Source: Verrucomicrobiota bacterium (lineage in GTDB: Bacteria > Verrucomicrobiota > Verrucomicrobiia > Verrucomicrobiales > DEV007). Taken from it: DNA of 64,000 nucleotides. Of this stretch, positions 9,594-33,497 are shown in pieces. The position numbers and the translations under genes were made by a program. The first letter of the stretch is position 1. The number at the start of each line of letters is the position of its first letter. Location of the stretch: NCBI GenBank assembly GCA_030625775.1, contig DAOUQC010000013.1, forward strand, positions 1 to 64,000, given 5' to 3'. A model generated the notes under the pieces. That model saw only the letters and a program-made list of their open reading frames with translations. It did no database searches and was not told the DNA's origin.

Positions 9594-9866
9594 TTAGAAA
9601 CCACTACGATGAAGACTTATCCCCCTGGTCGAGGTTCCGATGTAAGCATGGGTAAAACGAATCCCGTCTTTTACCAATTGATCAATATTCGGGGTCTTGG
9701 CCCAATCGTAGGCTTCCGGATAACAGCTGACGGTGCGATGAGATTGATCGTCAGCATAAATAAAGAGGATATTGGGTCGTTCGTCCTTCTTCTTTTCAGC
9801 AGCCAGAATCGGCAGGACTAACTCAAGCGAAATGGCAGCAAGTAAAAAATATCGGATTATTGTGTT
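9594..9866 (-). pseudogene. Sulfatase remnant, N-terminal end only
   Basis: The minus strand encodes a signal-peptide-like stretch (IIRYFLLAAISLELVLPILA) followed by the start of a sulfatase: RPNILFIYADDQSHRTVSCY, then KTPNIDQLVKDGIRFTHAY and IGTSTR. Homology ends just before the place where the catalytic Cys-x-Pro-Ser-Arg motif should appear, and the frame runs to a stop after nine unrelated residues. No ATG precedes the signal peptide; the codon at the expected start position is TAA. The gene has therefore lost both its start codon and everything after the first 75 or so residues. It lies in line with two intact sulfatase genes on the same strand. Confidence 0.8.
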
Positions 9867-10008: not shown

Positions 10009-11856
10009 CTAAAATTCCCAGCTCAGCAGCGCTTCTTTTCCTCGTAGAATCTCCATTTTCCCGATCTCAGTTTCTCCCCCACCACCTGGCGGATCGAAGC
10101 GAAACCCGGTAATCGGATTTTTTGCAGTGAAAGGAATCTCCAGCACCTGCCATTCAGACTGCAATGCCGCTGAGCGAACCCAACGATCTTTGAAATAGAG
10201 TGGCTTCACTCCCTTTTCCGCCCATCGCAGGTTAATGATTCCTTTCGCCGTCGAGCGAACGCGGATCCGAAACTTCAGTTTGCCGCCCATAATCGGTTTG
10301 GGCCAGGACACATTCACGTTGGGTGCCTTGCCAGTTGGCTTAATGAAGAGTGAGCCATCCTTTAATTTAAGGCCGCAATCTTTTCCTGCTTTCCAACCCA
10401 TGCTGGTTATTTTTTTATCTTCGGGGGCCCAGGCAGAATTCAACTTCGGATAGACGGCATGACTTTCTTTTAAAAACTCGGTCAGTCGGGCGTTCATTTT
10501 AAGAACACGTCCAGGGTGTTGTGATGCGACTTCGGAATGCTCTCCAATAGCTTCAGCCAAATTAAAAAGCCTTAACTCATCCTCTCCGTCATCAAGATTG
10601 TGAAAGAGTCGAAGCAACTTCCAATCTCCCTGATATATTGCAGCCGAAGGAGGCAGCGTATCCGGCACTCTCGTTGCATGTGGAAAGAAAGTGAAGATGG
10701 CATTTCTATCCAATTCACCCCCCTGTAAGGCGGGGAGAATACTGACCCCGTCGAAATTCTGATTCGGCGATGGATCCAGATCCAGCATTTCCAATATGGT
10801 GGGATATAGATCTGTACTGGTGATCAAATTGTTGTTTCGCGCACCCGCTTTGACTTTACCCGGCCACACCACGACTGCAGGGACACGAACGCCTCCATCC
10901 CAATTATTTCCCTTACCGCCACGCAACGGTCTATTTGAGGTGGGCGTGGTTCCATCCACCTCGTTATACATATTTCCTCCATTGTCGGAATAAAATATAA
11001 TGATCGTCTCTTTCGCCAGATCCAATCGATCCAATGCATCAAGCACCTTGCCCACATTATCATCCAGCGTTTCAACCATGGCCGCGTATGTGGGGCTGCG
11101 CTGTTCGTCGGTCGAGTCGATCCGCTTGCGGTGCTTCTCAATCAACTTTTCTTTGGCATTAAAAGGAGCATGAACGGAAAATTGCCAGTAGTTGATGAAA
11201 AATGGCTCACCGCTCCCCTTTTGTGCTTCCAAATACTTCACGATTTCATCACCCATGCGATCCTCAATGTGTTCACCGGGGTAGGCTTCCTTAAACGTTT
11301 TGAATTTCCAGGGTGCCACGTAGCTACCGGCTGGGCCCGGCCCATGCCAATGTGGAATATCTATGTCAAAACCATTTTCAAGGGGTGAGTAAGGTTCACT
11401 GCCAAGGTGCCACTTGCCAAAATGAGCCGTGGCGTAGCCTTCCGACTTTAATCGCTCACTAAGTGTTTCGTATTTTGGATCAAGACGCGTGACTGAGTTT
11501 ATATTGGTGAGCCTCCTGTTCGGAGCCGCTGAATCTCGAATAGTTGCCTTTAAATTTACTTCTGGTCCATGACAATTCGGAGTAGTCAGTCCAGTACGAG
11601 CTGGGTGCAATCCTGTGAGAATGCTGGAACGCGTGGGCGAACAAAGCGGACTGGAAGTGTAAGCCCTTTCAAAGGTCATTCCGCGTGCCGCTAAGCGCTC
11701 TAATTGAGGCGTCTGGTATAATTTGGTTTGCCCGTATAGGGTTGTGTCAGCCCAACCCAAGTCATCCGCGAGAATGAAGAGGAGGTTTGGTTTTTCTGCA
11801 GCTTGAAGCAGACAGGGAACACAAAAAATCAGAGCAACTAGTCTTAAAAAAGTCAT
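10009..11856 (-). CDS. Secreted sulfatase (family S1, Cys type) with C-terminal beta domain
   Basis: 615-residue sulfatase expected to hydrolyse sulfate esters on carbohydrates outside the cytoplasm. A signal peptide (MTFLRLVALIFCVPCLLQAA) leads into the metal-binding block LLFILADDLGW. The catalytic motif is LCSPTRSSILTG with Cys72, which must be oxidised to formylglycine. Further sulfatase blocks are GKWHLGS, FSVHAPF and FYSDNGGNM. The core ends near residue 480, followed by about 125 residues of a beta-rich, carbohydrate-binding-like domain (GGKLKFRIRVRSTAKG onward). It lies 55 bases downstream of another sulfatase that carries a similar extra domain, so the two may be an operon and an old duplication. 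No maturation enzyme is encoded in the window. Confidence 0.92.
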   Translation of the reverse strand: MTFLRLVALIFCVPCLLQAAEKPNLLFILADDLGWADTTLYGQTKLYQTPQLERLAARGMTFERAYTSSPLCSPTRSSILTGLHPARTGLTTPNCHGPEVNLKATIRDSAAPNRRLTNINSVTRLDPKYETLSERLKSEGYATAHFGKWHLGSEPYSPLENGFDIDIPHWHGPGPAGSYVAPWKFKTFKEAYPGEHIEDRMGDEIVKYLEAQKGSGEPFFINYWQFSVHAPFNAKEKLIEKHRKRIDSTDEQRSPTYAAMVETLDDNVGKVLDALDRLDLAKETIIIFYSDNGGNMYNEVDGTTPTSNRPLRGGKGNNWDGGVRVPAVVVWPGKVKAGARNNNLITSTDLYPTILEMLDLDPSPNQNFDGVSILPALQGGELDRNAIFTFFPHATRVPDTLPPSAAIYQGDWKLLRLFHNLDDGEDELRLFNLAEAIGEHSEVASQHPGRVLKMNARLTEFLKESHAVYPKLNSAWAPEDKKITSMGWKAGKDCGLKLKDGSLFIKPTGKAPNVNVSWPKPIMGGKLKFRIRVRSTAKGIINLRWAEKGVKPLYFKDRWVRSAALQSEWQVLEIPFTAKNPITGFRFDPPGGGGETEIGKMEILRGKEALLSWEF

Positions 11857-11911
11857 TATTATTGGAACGGTTTATCATCAAACGGCATTTGAATGATGTG
11901 GTGTTTCATTA

Positions 11912-13687
11912 TTATTTCGAAAAATCCCAGATTTTCACTGGCTTTCCCTTCGCATTCTCAAACTGAATTTTCTTAACCTCCGCCCCACCAGGCGGTAAAA
12001 ACAATCGCAGATGTATCACAGGAGTATCCGCCGTGAGCACCGCCTCGCAGTCTTGCCAATCAGGCGATGCTGCAAGTTCCAATGCAATCTTCTGCTGCGG
12101 CAAAAAATCCTTTTGCCCCTCACAGCGCCAGGCAATGCTTGCCTTCCCTGACACCGTTTTCAGACTAACTTTGACTTTAAGTGGAGTTGATAACTTAAAA
12201 CCGGAATTCACAATGAAAGGTGTCTGTTTTTTGTTGGCCTTCGGCTTGATATGCAATGCGCCTTGCTTGATGGCCACACTGCAATTTCTTGAAATCCATC
12301 CCCGGGTACCGGTTGATTCCTCAGCTGCTTTCCTGATAACAGGAGCCGGTTTACCATCGAGATAAAAATCATAGTATGCTTCCCAGACTGAAGACATAGC
12401 TCCGGAGCTCAGACCAGGAGGACTTAATTCGTTGGACCAGTTTTGGAGTTTTTGACGGAGTTGCTTGGCGATTTTCGGATTTTGACTGAGCAAGTTTGTT
12501 TTCTCACTCGGATCGGATTCAAGATCAAAAAGATACGCACGCTCACCACCTTGAAGTAGCTTCCATTTCCCCTCGCGAATCGCAGCTTGAGCAATCCAAC
12601 GCCACGTTAACGCTCGTTCGGGAGCGGTTTGTATCTTTCCGCTGAGGTAAGGCAGCAGGTTCACTCCATCCAGCAATTCATCCTTTGGCAATCCTGCTAG
12701 CTCAACTGCAGTGGCCGCCACATCCAAGGCCGAAAGCGGATGATTATAAACTTGACCACCAGGAATAGCTCCTGGCCAGGATACCAGAAATGGAACGCGA
12801 ATCCCGCCTTCCGCCAACATGCCCTTTTCACCATTCATCGGCTCGTTGAGCGAACCGTCCCAACCGGGACCACCACCCGGCGCATCGGTTTTATGAATTT
12901 TTAGCGGAGCGCCATTATCGCCGATATAAAAAATGAGCGTCTTCTCAAGCAGTCCTCGCTGTTTTAGATTGGCGACAATTTGACCAACGCCGTCATCCAT
13001 CGCAGAAATCATCGCAAGAGCCTGTCGCCGCCGCTCTGGCATTTTTCCGGGAAATCGATCCAGATATTTTTTGGGAGCATCAAGTGGAACATGTGGCGCA
13101 CGATAAGCCAGGTAGAGAAAAAATGGTTCGTCTCCATGGCGTTGAATGAATGTTGTCGCCGCTTGGGAACAGGCATCCAAGTGATAAAGGCCATCATCAA
13201 CCTGCTGCATCGGGATCGTCTTGCCGTCCAAGGTGTAATTTGCGTGGCAGGGACGATTCGCGTTCTTTGAATAAACGTCGTCGAAACCATGATCCGTAAT
13301 TTTTGAAGTCAGACCCAGATGCCATTTTCCAATCTGTCCCGTTGCGTAACCTGCCGACTTCAATCGCTCAGCAATCGTCAACTCTGCATCAAATCCATCC
13401 AGCGATACGCCATTGCTTTCCACTCCAAATCGATTCTGAAATTTTCCCGCAAGCAAACCGGCACGGGATGGAACACATTGTGGCGCAGAAGAGTAACCGT
13501 TGGTGGCGCGAACTCCTGATGCTGCCAATGCGTTAATGTGTGGAGTCTTGAGATCATCATAAATTCCAGCCGCACCTATATCAGGCCAACCATGATCATC
13601 GGTGTAGATGACGATAATGTTGGGTTTGCTTGGAGTTGCAAAAGCGAGATACGGAAACGCGATAAGGACGAATAGAATTTTCTTCAT
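11912..13687 (-). CDS. Secreted sulfatase (family S1, Cys type) with C-terminal beta domain
   Basis: 591-residue sulfatase. The signal peptide MKKILFVLIAFPYLAFA is followed by IIVIYTDDHGWPD. The catalytic motif is QCVPSRAGLLAG with Cys71 (formylglycine precursor). GKWHLGL, YRAPHVPLDAP and IFYIGDNGAP are the usual metal- and sulfate-binding blocks. After residue about 460 a beta-rich domain follows (ALHIKPKANKKQTPF, then LRLFLPPGGAEVKKIQFEN) that resembles the tail of the next gene downstream, including a shared PPGG-x-E/K-hydrophobic ending. Probably the first gene of a two-sulfatase unit. The substrate cannot be read from sequence. Confidence 0.92.
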   Translation of the reverse strand: MKKILFVLIAFPYLAFATPSKPNIIVIYTDDHGWPDIGAAGIYDDLKTPHINALAASGVRATNGYSSAPQCVPSRAGLLAGKFQNRFGVESNGVSLDGFDAELTIAERLKSAGYATGQIGKWHLGLTSKITDHGFDDVYSKNANRPCHANYTLDGKTIPMQQVDDGLYHLDACSQAATTFIQRHGDEPFFLYLAYRAPHVPLDAPKKYLDRFPGKMPERRRQALAMISAMDDGVGQIVANLKQRGLLEKTLIFYIGDNGAPLKIHKTDAPGGGPGWDGSLNEPMNGEKGMLAEGGIRVPFLVSWPGAIPGGQVYNHPLSALDVAATAVELAGLPKDELLDGVNLLPYLSGKIQTAPERALTWRWIAQAAIREGKWKLLQGGERAYLFDLESDPSEKTNLLSQNPKIAKQLRQKLQNWSNELSPPGLSSGAMSSVWEAYYDFYLDGKPAPVIRKAAEESTGTRGWISRNCSVAIKQGALHIKPKANKKQTPFIVNSGFKLSTPLKVKVSLKTVSGKASIAWRCEGQKDFLPQQKIALELAASPDWQDCEAVLTADTPVIHLRLFLPPGGAEVKKIQFENAKGKPVKIWDFSK

Positions 13688-29468: not shown

Positions 29469-32400
29469 TCACTCGCTTTGCCCCCAAATCTTTGGCACCT
29501 TGAAATCGGCGGGCGCTCTGTTCGGGGCGATGTTTGCTTTGACTGCTTCGTTTGCCAGTTCGGCGAGCTTTGCCTGCAGCTTCTTGAAAACCTCGGGCTG
29601 CTGCTTGCTGCGATCCATTTTTTCTGAAGGATCATTCTCAATGTCGAACAACTCCCAGCTTTCGATTTTACTGGCTGTTGTGATATTTGCATGGACGTGA
29701 CCATTGTGCACCAGCTTCCATTTGCCCATTCGGATAGCTCCGTGAAAGGGCGTGACGTTGTGCAGGATGAATTTATGCGGTGAAGCCTCCCCTTTGGCAA
29801 TCGTAGCCCAGACATCCTTGCCATCGAGTGATTTGAATTGTTCGGGCTCAGCTCCAGCCAGCCCCAGCAGAGTTGGAAACATATCCACTATATGCAGCTG
29901 TTCTTCAACGATCGAGCCTGCCTGAAGTTTGCCCTCCCATACTGCGATTGCCGGAACCCGGACGCCGCCCTCGTAGAGCGTGCCCTTTCCTTCCCGCAAC
30001 TCACCGTTTGAGCCGAGCTTCTTGATGCCTCCGTTATCGGAGCAGAAAAAAATGAGCGTATTGTCAGCGGAATAGTGATGTTCTTGCAAAGCTTTCACAA
30101 TACGCCCGACCGCGGTGTCCATGCTGCTTACCATGGCTGCGTACGTTCGACGCTGTGGTTTTTTCATGGCGGAATACTGATCGATGTATTCCTGCGGCGC
30201 CTGAAGTGGCGTATGCGGAGCATTGAATGGCACGTAGAGGAACAGTGGCTCGGATTTATCGTGCCCAGCGATGATTCGAACCGCTTGTTCTCCAATTAAA
30301 TCGGTGGAATATCCTTCGTCGTAGTTTGCCTTGTCGTCTTCATGCCAGTCGTGCCCGCCGTCGCGAATGTGGGTGAAATAATCGAGAGCACCATTGTAAT
30401 GCCCGTATTGTTGGTGAAATCCACGACGGGTCGGGAGGTAGTCGGCGCTGAGATGTCCAAGGTGCCATTTGCCTACAATGGCAGTTTTATAGCCAACTTT
30501 GGCAAGAGCCTCCGGCAAGGTCAGTTCGTCGAGTGGCAGACCGTGCGCCGCCCAGGGCCGGACGACCCCGCATTGCAAGCCGAGGCGCATCGGATAGCGG
30601 CCTGTCATCAAAGCGCCACGTGTGGGTGAGCATACGGGCTGGACGTAAAAATGATTCAATCGCACTCCTCGTTTGGCGAGATTGTCGATGTTGGGAGTGG
30701 CAATTCGGCTGCCATGATAACCGACGTCTCCCCATCCGAGATCATCTGCCATCAGAAAAATGATATGTGGTTTTTTGGATACGACAGGCTTTGTTTTTTT
30801 TGATTTGATTTGAAATGCAGGATCACTTGCATCTAGCGGAAGCCCGGCGTTCCATTTTCGAATGGCCTTTTCCAATCGAATGACGACATCGGGATTCTCT
30901 CTGGCTAGATTACGGCTTTCTGAAATATCGGCATTGAGATCGTAGAGTTGCGGATCACTGCCATCGTGATTGATAAGCAATTTCCATTTTCCGTCACGTG
31001 CAGCGAGGTCGGGATTGTCTTCCTCATTTGTCCCGGGGCGATCGGGCGGTCGTCTCCAGAAAATGGGAGTCTGGCGGCTGTTTTTTGATTTACCCAACAG
31101 CGTATCAATGAGATTCTCTCCATCGAGATCGCTGCCTGGGGGAAGTGGTGTGCCGGTCAGGCTGTAAAGAGACCGGTTCAAATCGAGTGCACAAAGAATA
31201 GATTCATTATTCATCGTGCCTGCTGCGGTCGAGTCAATGAGTCCCGGCCCCCAAACGATCAAGGGAGAGCGAACGCCGCCTTCGTAGAGCCATGTTTTGG
31301 CACCGCGCAAGGGATCAGATGAGCCCGCCCCTTCATCGTGGCCGTTATCGGATGCGATCAAAATTAAGGTATTGTTTTTCAACTTTTCATCGTCCCTCAC
31401 CCGGTCAAATAAGATACCAAGCTGTTGATCCATCGCATCAAGAACAGCGTAGTAGAGCGCCCGTTTGCTGCCGTCACCGGCCTTGCGAAGAACTTCCGGT
31501 GGAAAAAACGGCGCATGAACGTCATCGGGCCATAGGTTTATGTAGAATGGCTGACCCGTTACTTGGGCATGATCAATAAATTCGACTGCTTCTTTCACAA
31601 ACTCGGCAGTGATGACCGACCGATCCTTCCAAAAAATCGGACCTTTGCCGAGATCTCCTGATCCGAGATCATGTTTCCTGGGTGCTTTGCCGTCATAGGC
31701 ATCTTTCAGTGGAAGAACGCGCGGACCGAGCCCCTCGAAATTGGTCAGGCTACGATCAAACCCATATTTCGAAATCAAAGGAGCATTGCCGACATCGCGT
31801 TGTCCGCCCATGTGCCATTTTCCGAAATGACCAGTGGCGTATCCTGCATAACGAAGTTCACGCGCCAGTACCGGGGCTTTAGGGTCGAGCCACTGCGCCA
31901 TGCCTCGCTCGCGGTTCAGTTTGCGTTTGGCTAAGTAGGAACTGATCTTCCAGCGTTGCGGATACTGCCCAGTGGTCAGGGCAACCCGCGACGGTGAACA
32001 AATCGGAGAATTAACATAAAAATTAGAAAACTTGATGCCCTCCGCTGCGAGCCGATCAATATTTTCTGTCTCGACTCTTTTGCCGCCGAAGCAGGAGAGG
32101 TCGGACCATCCCATGTCATCAATAAAAACCGTAATAATGTTCGGTTTACCTGATTCAGCGATGTGTTTGGGGGTTCCATAGATTGCCTTTTGATCCTTGG
32201 TTGAAGCCATCCAGACATCAACTTTTTTGCCTAGGTCAACGATTCGACCTACCTGGGTCTGATCATCAATGAGATTGTGTTGTTCGTAGGGATCATCCGT
32301 GATGCGATAGAGTTCTTCCGAGGGCCGTTGTTGGTAGCGGGTTACCGTTTGTTTTGCCTCGGGGGAGGCCATTGCCTCTTTTACCCAGCTTTGCCAGTAT

Positions 32401-33497
32401 CCACTGTCGGCATGAGATTTGGTGACATGACTGGTGAATCGAAACTCCGGGTGAAGATTGCGAATGTATTTCCATCCGTCCTGCGTCATGGCCGCACGGA
32501 TGGGATAGACATTGTTATTTCCGTCACCACTATGGCTTGTGAAAATGATCTGCCGGTGGGTATCGGATTTACCCTCTAGAACAGGGAGAAAAGAACGCCC
32601 ATCAATATGCTCCGGCTTCCTCCCTCCGGCAACATCCACAAGAGTCGGCAGAATATCGATCCATGAAACCATGGCTTCGCTTCGGGTTCCCCCTTCAATG
32701 TGGCCAGGCCACGACACCATCATCGGTGTGCGGATGCCATCTTCGTAGAGGTTCCATTTTCCGAAAGGCCATTGCGCGCCATGATCACTGGTGTGGAGAA
32801 AAAAGGTATCATCACCGAGTTTTTTGCGGGCAAGATTGTAAACTTGTCCCAGTTCGGTATCCATCTTTTGAATCGCGGCGACATAGCGAGCCCTCCATTT
32901 TCGGGTGGTTTTACTGCTAACGTGATTTGGTGGAATTTTTAACTGTGCCGGATCGATATCACCAATATCTTCCGGCCAAGGAACGTGAGGCCAGTTTGTC
33001 CCTACAAAAAGGCACAGCGGCTTTTTGCTGTCGCGTGCCTCCAGCCATTGCAAAGCTTTTGGAATGGCGATGTCTTCGTGGTAGTTAAAATGACGAGCCA
33101 CATCAAATCCATAATCCGGCGTCTGCTTGTAGTGCCCCACTTTTCCAAATGAAACGACTTCATAACCAAGTTCCTGAAGATAAGCTGGCAATTTTTTAAT
33201 CTCTGGCCGGGGACGCGAATGATTTGGTTCGGCTCCATTGTTCGCTGGATAGAGCCCCGTCAAAAGAGCTGCCCGACTCGGTGCGCAGGAAGGCGAAGCG
33301 ACATAGGCCTTGTCGAAAGTCATTCCTGCCTTCGCCAGTCGGGCCATGTTGGGAGTTTCAATGTCAAATGAGCCGTAAACCGACGAATCCCGCCAAGTAT
33401 GATCATCTGAGAGAAAAACGACAATGTCGGGACGTTCATTGGCGAAAACCCCAAAGGCAACTAAAGTAAGGAGGACAATTAAACTGGACTTGAACAT
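29469..33497 (-). CDS. Triple-domain secreted sulfatase (three complete S1 domains fused)
   Basis: One uninterrupted frame of 1342 residues encodes three full sulfatases behind a single signal peptide (MFKSSLIVLLTLVAFGVFA). Domain 1 (about 22-445) has SCAPSRAALLTG with Cys71 and resembles heparan N-sulfatase-type enzymes. Domain 2 (about 449-895) has ICSPSRVALTTG with Cys500, GKWHMGG and ASDNGHDEG. Domain 3 (about 909-1342) has VCSPTRGALMTG with Cys956 and resembles arylsulfatase B (GKWHLGH and LPTRRGF). All three keep the metal-binding DD pair (SDDH, IDDMGW, ADDLGW), so all may be active after formylglycine formation. The linkers are short (for example IKSKKTKPVVSKK) with no internal signal peptide. 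The frame is open to 33647, but the signal peptide fixes the start at 33497. Confidence 0.92.
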   Translation of the reverse strand: MFKSSLIVLLTLVAFGVFANERPDIVVFLSDDHTWRDSSVYGSFDIETPNMARLAKAGMTFDKAYVASPSCAPSRAALLTGLYPANNGAEPNHSRPRPEIKKLPAYLQELGYEVVSFGKVGHYKQTPDYGFDVARHFNYHEDIAIPKALQWLEARDSKKPLCLFVGTNWPHVPWPEDIGDIDPAQLKIPPNHVSSKTTRKWRARYVAAIQKMDTELGQVYNLARKKLGDDTFFLHTSDHGAQWPFGKWNLYEDGIRTPMMVSWPGHIEGGTRSEAMVSWIDILPTLVDVAGGRKPEHIDGRSFLPVLEGKSDTHRQIIFTSHSGDGNNNVYPIRAAMTQDGWKYIRNLHPEFRFTSHVTKSHADSGYWQSWVKEAMASPEAKQTVTRYQQRPSEELYRITDDPYEQHNLIDDQTQVGRIVDLGKKVDVWMASTKDQKAIYGTPKHIAESGKPNIITVFIDDMGWSDLSCFGGKRVETENIDRLAAEGIKFSNFYVNSPICSPSRVALTTGQYPQRWKISSYLAKRKLNRERGMAQWLDPKAPVLARELRYAGYATGHFGKWHMGGQRDVGNAPLISKYGFDRSLTNFEGLGPRVLPLKDAYDGKAPRKHDLGSGDLGKGPIFWKDRSVITAEFVKEAVEFIDHAQVTGQPFYINLWPDDVHAPFFPPEVLRKAGDGSKRALYYAVLDAMDQQLGILFDRVRDDEKLKNNTLILIASDNGHDEGAGSSDPLRGAKTWLYEGGVRSPLIVWGPGLIDSTAAGTMNNESILCALDLNRSLYSLTGTPLPPGSDLDGENLIDTLLGKSKNSRQTPIFWRRPPDRPGTNEEDNPDLAARDGKWKLLINHDGSDPQLYDLNADISESRNLARENPDVVIRLEKAIRKWNAGLPLDASDPAFQIKSKKTKPVVSKKPHIIFLMADDLGWGDVGYHGSRIATPNIDNLAKRGVRLNHFYVQPVCSPTRGALMTGRYPMRLGLQCGVVRPWAAHGLPLDELTLPEALAKVGYKTAIVGKWHLGHLSADYLPTRRGFHQQYGHYNGALDYFTHIRDGGHDWHEDDKANYDEGYSTDLIGEQAVRIIAGHDKSEPLFLYVPFNAPHTPLQAPQEYIDQYSAMKKPQRRTYAAMVSSMDTAVGRIVKALQEHHYSADNTLIFFCSDNGGIKKLGSNGELREGKGTLYEGGVRVPAIAVWEGKLQAGSIVEEQLHIVDMFPTLLGLAGAEPEQFKSLDGKDVWATIAKGEASPHKFILHNVTPFHGAIRMGKWKLVHNGHVHANITTASKIESWELFDIENDPSEKMDRSKQQPEVFKKLQAKLAELANEAVKANIAPNRAPADFKVPKIWGQSE

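Follow-up and report, generated by a model that had tools for sequence, protein, structure and literature searches.

In the degradation of algal sulfated polysaccharides, desulfation is a bottleneck step. Fusion of two sulfatases has been described in the planctomycetes P1 and P2, which carry a two-sulfatase fusion gene (Kim et al. 2016, PMC4807772). In planctomycetes, sulfatase genes often stand side by side, and their partners change (PMC4807772). Sulfatase-glycosidase fusions, namely S1_7-GH10 and S1_15-GH29, are known from Pontiella F1/F21 (PMC6388578). In the lambda-carrageenan pathway of Pseudoalteromonas distincta, S1_8 and S1_15 sulfatases act sequentially on differently placed sulfates (PMC12549532).

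The window, which is the whole 64,000-nucleotide stretch of a Verrucomicrobiota genome analysed here, contains a gene that an earlier note had read as three S1 sulfatases in one stop-free frame, and our analysis confirmed this reading. The gene lies on the minus strand at 29469..33497, with the coding part at 33497-29472 and the stop codon at 29469-29471, and encodes 1342 residues. The profile search (PF00884, cut-off 25 bits) gave three domains, each spanning profile positions 1-300/301: D1 (residues 19-446; 32160..33443, minus strand) with 142.1 bits, D2 (residues 447-903; 30789..32159, minus strand) with 145.3 bits and D3 (residues 904-1342; 29472..30788, minus strand) with 211.2 bits. The three catalytic cysteines are at the residues previously assigned, Cys71 within CAPSR of D1 (33285-33287), Cys500 within CSPSR of D2 (31998-32000) and Cys956 within CSPTR of D3 (30630-30632), all on the minus strand. 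The C-x-P-S/T-R cysteine and the Asp-Asp, GK..H, His, Asp-Asn/His and Lys motifs are present in D1, D2 and D3, and the active-site motifs were also seen in alignments to solved sulfatases. By profile and motifs, each domain is an S1 (type I, formylglycine) sulfatase with predicted activity. Reading the sequence by eye bore out the single signal peptide: one hydrophobic leader, MFKSSLIVLLTLVAFGVFA, is located at the N-terminus (residues 1-19; 33441..33497, minus strand) and none precedes D2 or D3.

The pairwise identity among the three domains is only 27.7-29.0%, and they are therefore no recent duplicates; recent tandem duplication is ruled out by this 27-29% identity. Their nearest solved relatives also differ, in agreement with the proposal that the domains belong to different subtypes and do not represent one recently duplicated subfamily. 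D1 is closest in sequence to the S1_8A sulfatase 9bb9 (∼26% identity) and closest in fold to human sulfamidase (4miv) and the S1_8C sulfatase 9bep, with Z of 41-43 within about 1.5 Z of each other; by best match among solved sulfatases it fits the SulfAtlas subfamily S1_8. This subfamily includes sulfamidases (PMC6388578) and also galactose-2-sulfate sulfatases (PMC12549532), so N-sulfatase activity of D1 should not be assumed. The designation of D1 as heparan N-sulfatase-like thus holds in the sense of SGSH/S1_8-like and is too specific as a function. D2 matches in sequence 7stt, a Pedobacter sulfatase, and then 9fo1 (S1_16); by fold, S1_19 and other structures tie. For D3, human arylsulfatase B (1fsu) comes first and S1_19 carrageenan sulfatases next, both by sequence and by fold; D3 fits the S1_19 or arylsulfatase-B group by best match among solved sulfatases, as the arylsulfatase B-like label had anticipated. 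The solved relatives of the domains are all distant (about 25-37% identity). Galactose-type sugars are the substrates of the characterised relatives nearest to D1 and D3, which is a hint only as to a possible substrate of the domains. A structure model of D1-D2 (885 residues; mean pLDDT 89, pTM 0.88) has the two domains appear to pack together as one unit. D3 was modelled alone; a joint D2-D3 alignment had put D3 homologues on D2.

We scanned about 85,000 species, each represented by one genome, with a D1-D2 alignment and added genome searches. D1 and D2 are fused in 35 of the 47 sampled loci that have both domains. Many Planctomycetota have D1-D2 in one frame, among them Rhodopirellula, Rubripirellula, Blastopirellula and Bythopirellula, and the arrangement is also found in Verrucomicrobiota; in more distant relatives (f4 genomes and others), D1 and D2 are separate, often adjacent genes. 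In a quick tree, from which the root was not inferred, a single branch (SH-aLRT 88) parts the fused from the separate rows, so that one origin of the D1-D2 fusion would be the simplest reading. The window D1-D2, a single frame with orthologues of both domains, sits within the fusion clade. It pairs with that of a species of the same genus, Dive96_bin10.62 (G002), at 82% identity, and the position of this pair inside a group that is otherwise planctomycete suggests that D1-D2 may have moved between phyla. One of the planctomycete sequences that cluster with the window and with the G002 sequence L121 is L129, which belongs to the Dive96 sample series, as does G002; the clustering may reflect either interphylum transfer or a binning mix-up. 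Of the 35 fused rows, 19 have a C-terminal GH43 domain, and some of the others end at contig ends. The nearest structures of this GH43 are of arabinofuranosidase and xylosidase types. The long association of D1 and D2 supports a shared substrate for this pair. One very long, multi-enzyme case is a 3017-residue stop-free frame in genome G086 (L101:2987-12037, plus strand), comprising GH2, TraB/PrgY/gumN and GH5-like domains, two sulfatases (D1-D2), GH43 and a 3-keto-disaccharide-hydrolase.

The third domain is where the window gene departs from G002. In G002, the D1-D2 frame terminates with AFQKKRK-TAG, and D3 is a separate gene 174 bases after this stop with its own signal peptide, starting MKRIILFLLMLITCQVQA-AEKPHIIF. 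The corresponding stretch in the window reads AFQIKSKKTKPVVSKKPHIIF uninterrupted, without a stop or a signal peptide, and the D2-D3 linker comprises residues 894-906 (30780..30818, minus strand; comparison with G002 locus L061). The last aligned D2 residue and the first aligned D3 residue are 18 bases apart in the window versus 231 in G002, a difference of 213 bases or exactly 71 codons. Within the family, close relatives of D3 stand as genes of their own, which makes a fusion in the window lineage likelier than a separation in G002. The D2-D3 join is known from one assembly only and appears to be recent. Comparison of the window gene with G002 gave dN of 0.11, 0.11 and 0.17 for D1, D2 and D3, with dS of 1.9 or saturated. 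Between the two species, each of the three domains is under constraint, and D3 has no visible decay; this comparison spans time both before and after the join and so is no proof that the fused D3 is selected as part of the fusion.

The window genome is a 4.88 Mb draft assembly of 158 contigs with 131 PF00884 matches. It contains a strongly matched FGE gene (277 bits) and no anSME above the cut-off (best match 41.7 bits versus 349), from which an FGE-type route of formylglycine formation is likely; anSME-type maturation was not supported at that score. Next to the three-sulfatase gene are an ABC transporter on one side and, on the other, riboflavin synthase and antiporter genes. The close neighbours of the gene in the window are housekeeping genes, and no recognisable polysaccharide cluster was seen around it. 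The window and G002 loci have no flanking genes in common; with different flanks and housekeeping neighbours, synteny was rejected as a guide to the substrate. The order of the window genome and G002 also includes Haloferula and Verrucomicrobiaceae genomes. Elsewhere in the window, a short PF00884 piece below the cut-off (profile 1-54; 9615-9776, minus strand) lies beside two complete sulfatase genes at 10009-13687 and is perhaps a gene remnant. The same genome carries frames joining a sulfatase to cytochrome c (L069:2742-5801), to DUF7133 and HEAT repeats (L067:3932-8569), to DUF5722 (L066:2025-5915) and to a glycosyltransferase (L068:5300-9364); a frame in G020 (L078:1860-5534) contains sulfatase, multicopper oxidase and redoxin domains.

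The assumption that two-sulfatase fusions are rare was not sustained: D1-D2 is fused in 35 sampled genomes, a fusion of two sulfatases was published in 2016 (PMC4807772), and other two-sulfatase frames are frequent in relatives. Among the best 150 sulfatase domains of each genome, at least four such frames of a domain type unrelated to D1-D2 occur in G086 (L204:896-8683, L205:3732-7370, L206:3207-6728 and L207:3258-6782) and at least two in G162 (L217:2089-7029 and L218:2027-4858), with at most two sulfatases per frame. Two-sulfatase frames are also present in G008 (L065) and G038 (L077). The latter (L077:1408-4302, minus strand), from another family of the order, has a D3-type sulfatase (53%) behind a different sulfatase and is an independent fusion of a D3 relative. 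The searches recovered D1-D2 in both Verrucomicrobiota and Planctomycetota and no other three-sulfatase frame, either in about 220 loci selected for D1-D2 or in the sulfatase lists of four genomes (the best 150 domains for G086 and G162). A limited literature search found no published protein with three sulfatase domains, which is weak evidence. The surprise of the triple fusion is smaller than claimed because a two-sulfatase family of planctomycetes and Verrucomicrobiota has been joined by one neighbour. The three-domain protein is genuine and extends a common architecture in an unusual way without being a novel type of enzyme; its novelty lies in the third domain alone, D1-D2 being already common to dozens of related bacteria.

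We consider it probable that the gene encodes a secreted multi-modular sulfatase built stepwise, whose three sites would desulfate one polysaccharide. An S1_8-type D1 and an S1_16-like D2, which more distant relatives have as separate and often adjacent genes, would have fused into a two-sulfatase protein that Planctomycetota and Verrucomicrobiota now have in common and that is often followed by a GH43 glycosidase. In the window lineage, a downstream S1_19/ARSB-like D3 gene with its own signal peptide would have become part of the same frame when a net 213 bases were lost, and with them the stop codon, the spacer and the signal peptide. The product would be exported once, its three cysteines converted into formylglycine via the FGE of the genome, and the three active sites would take sulfates off different positions of one sulfated polysaccharide. 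Within this scheme, the anatomy, the intact catalytic motifs, the conservation of D1-D2 and the separate D3 gene of G002 are observed; which way the D3 step went is a part that we infer, as are maturation, activity, the substrate and the co-operation of the sites; multi-site desulfation of one polysaccharide by the fused chain is plausible but unproven. That D3 would share the D1-D2 substrate is inferred from its adjacency in two species and from the fusion itself.

An assembly error at D2-D3, with a D1-D2 gene and a separate D3 as in G002 from which some 210 bases were dropped, would suit a draft assembly of 158 contigs, an A-rich D2-D3 linker and a three-domain fusion seen in one genome only. 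We regard such an error as improbable. The loss is exactly 71 codons and the frame stays open, and no trace of the stop, spacer or leader is left; a simple base error is therefore no explanation, since a misread stop codon would still be followed by spacer and leader. The order of D2 and D3 is independently supported by their being neighbours in G002 too, and the D1-D2 join is present in dozens of independent assemblies. Still less credence can be given to a three-domain form ancestral in the genus from which G002 later split D3 off: G002 would then have had to gain a stop, a spacer and an entire signal peptide in the right position, and elsewhere the relatives of D3 are genes of their own, although D3 adjoins D1-D2 in both species and a tree of two species alone cannot give the direction.

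A neutral origin, in which chance loss of the spacer in a sulfatase-rich genome linked domains that remain independent and the linkage has no functional meaning, is unlikely though far from negligible. These genomes contain many kinds of two-sulfatase and sulfatase-plus-other fusions, adjacent planctomycete sulfatase genes are common and swap partners (PMC4807772), and the D3 join is recent and single. Against it, D1-D2 has been kept fused in two phyla and the model appears to pack D1 and D2 together, which argues for a function of at least that pair. The stepwise-built multi-site sulfatase stays our preferred reading. A stricter version, a one-chain desulfation machine with three position specificities, at least two sites in fixed arrangement, ordered action on one polysaccharide strand and stepwise build-up from neighbouring genes within the genus, is put forward tentatively and is more doubtful than not. 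Separate genes, a two-domain protein, a version with added GH43 and a three-domain protein make up a natural series of these enzymes, on which it could be tested directly whether multi-site desulfation becomes faster when sulfatases are linked. The two species of one genus, in turn, would show the step that turns a neighbouring exported gene into a domain.

The closest counterparts are the D1-D2 clade members, including Rhodopirellula maiorica (L124), Blastopirellula marina (L155), Akkermansiaceae UBA2381 (L152) and Dive96_bin10.62 (G002/L121). They have D1 followed by D2 in one frame, 59-84% identical, whereas they lack the third sulfatase and about half (19/35) have GH43 in that place. The P1/P2 fusion likewise joins sulfatase genes that are unrelated and were probably neighbours once, but it has two domains, described as arylsulfatase A-like and then iduronate-sulfatase-like (PMC4807772). 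The Pontiella fusions and the Formosa GH78-S1_25 protein (6hr5) resemble the window protein as multi-modular secreted sulfatases of marine polysaccharide degraders and differ in having one sulfatase per chain. The P. distincta pathway resembles what we propose for the window protein, with several S1 sulfatases including S1_8 directed at one polysaccharide; there, however, the sulfatases are separate proteins, and D1 is ∼26% identical to S1_8A.
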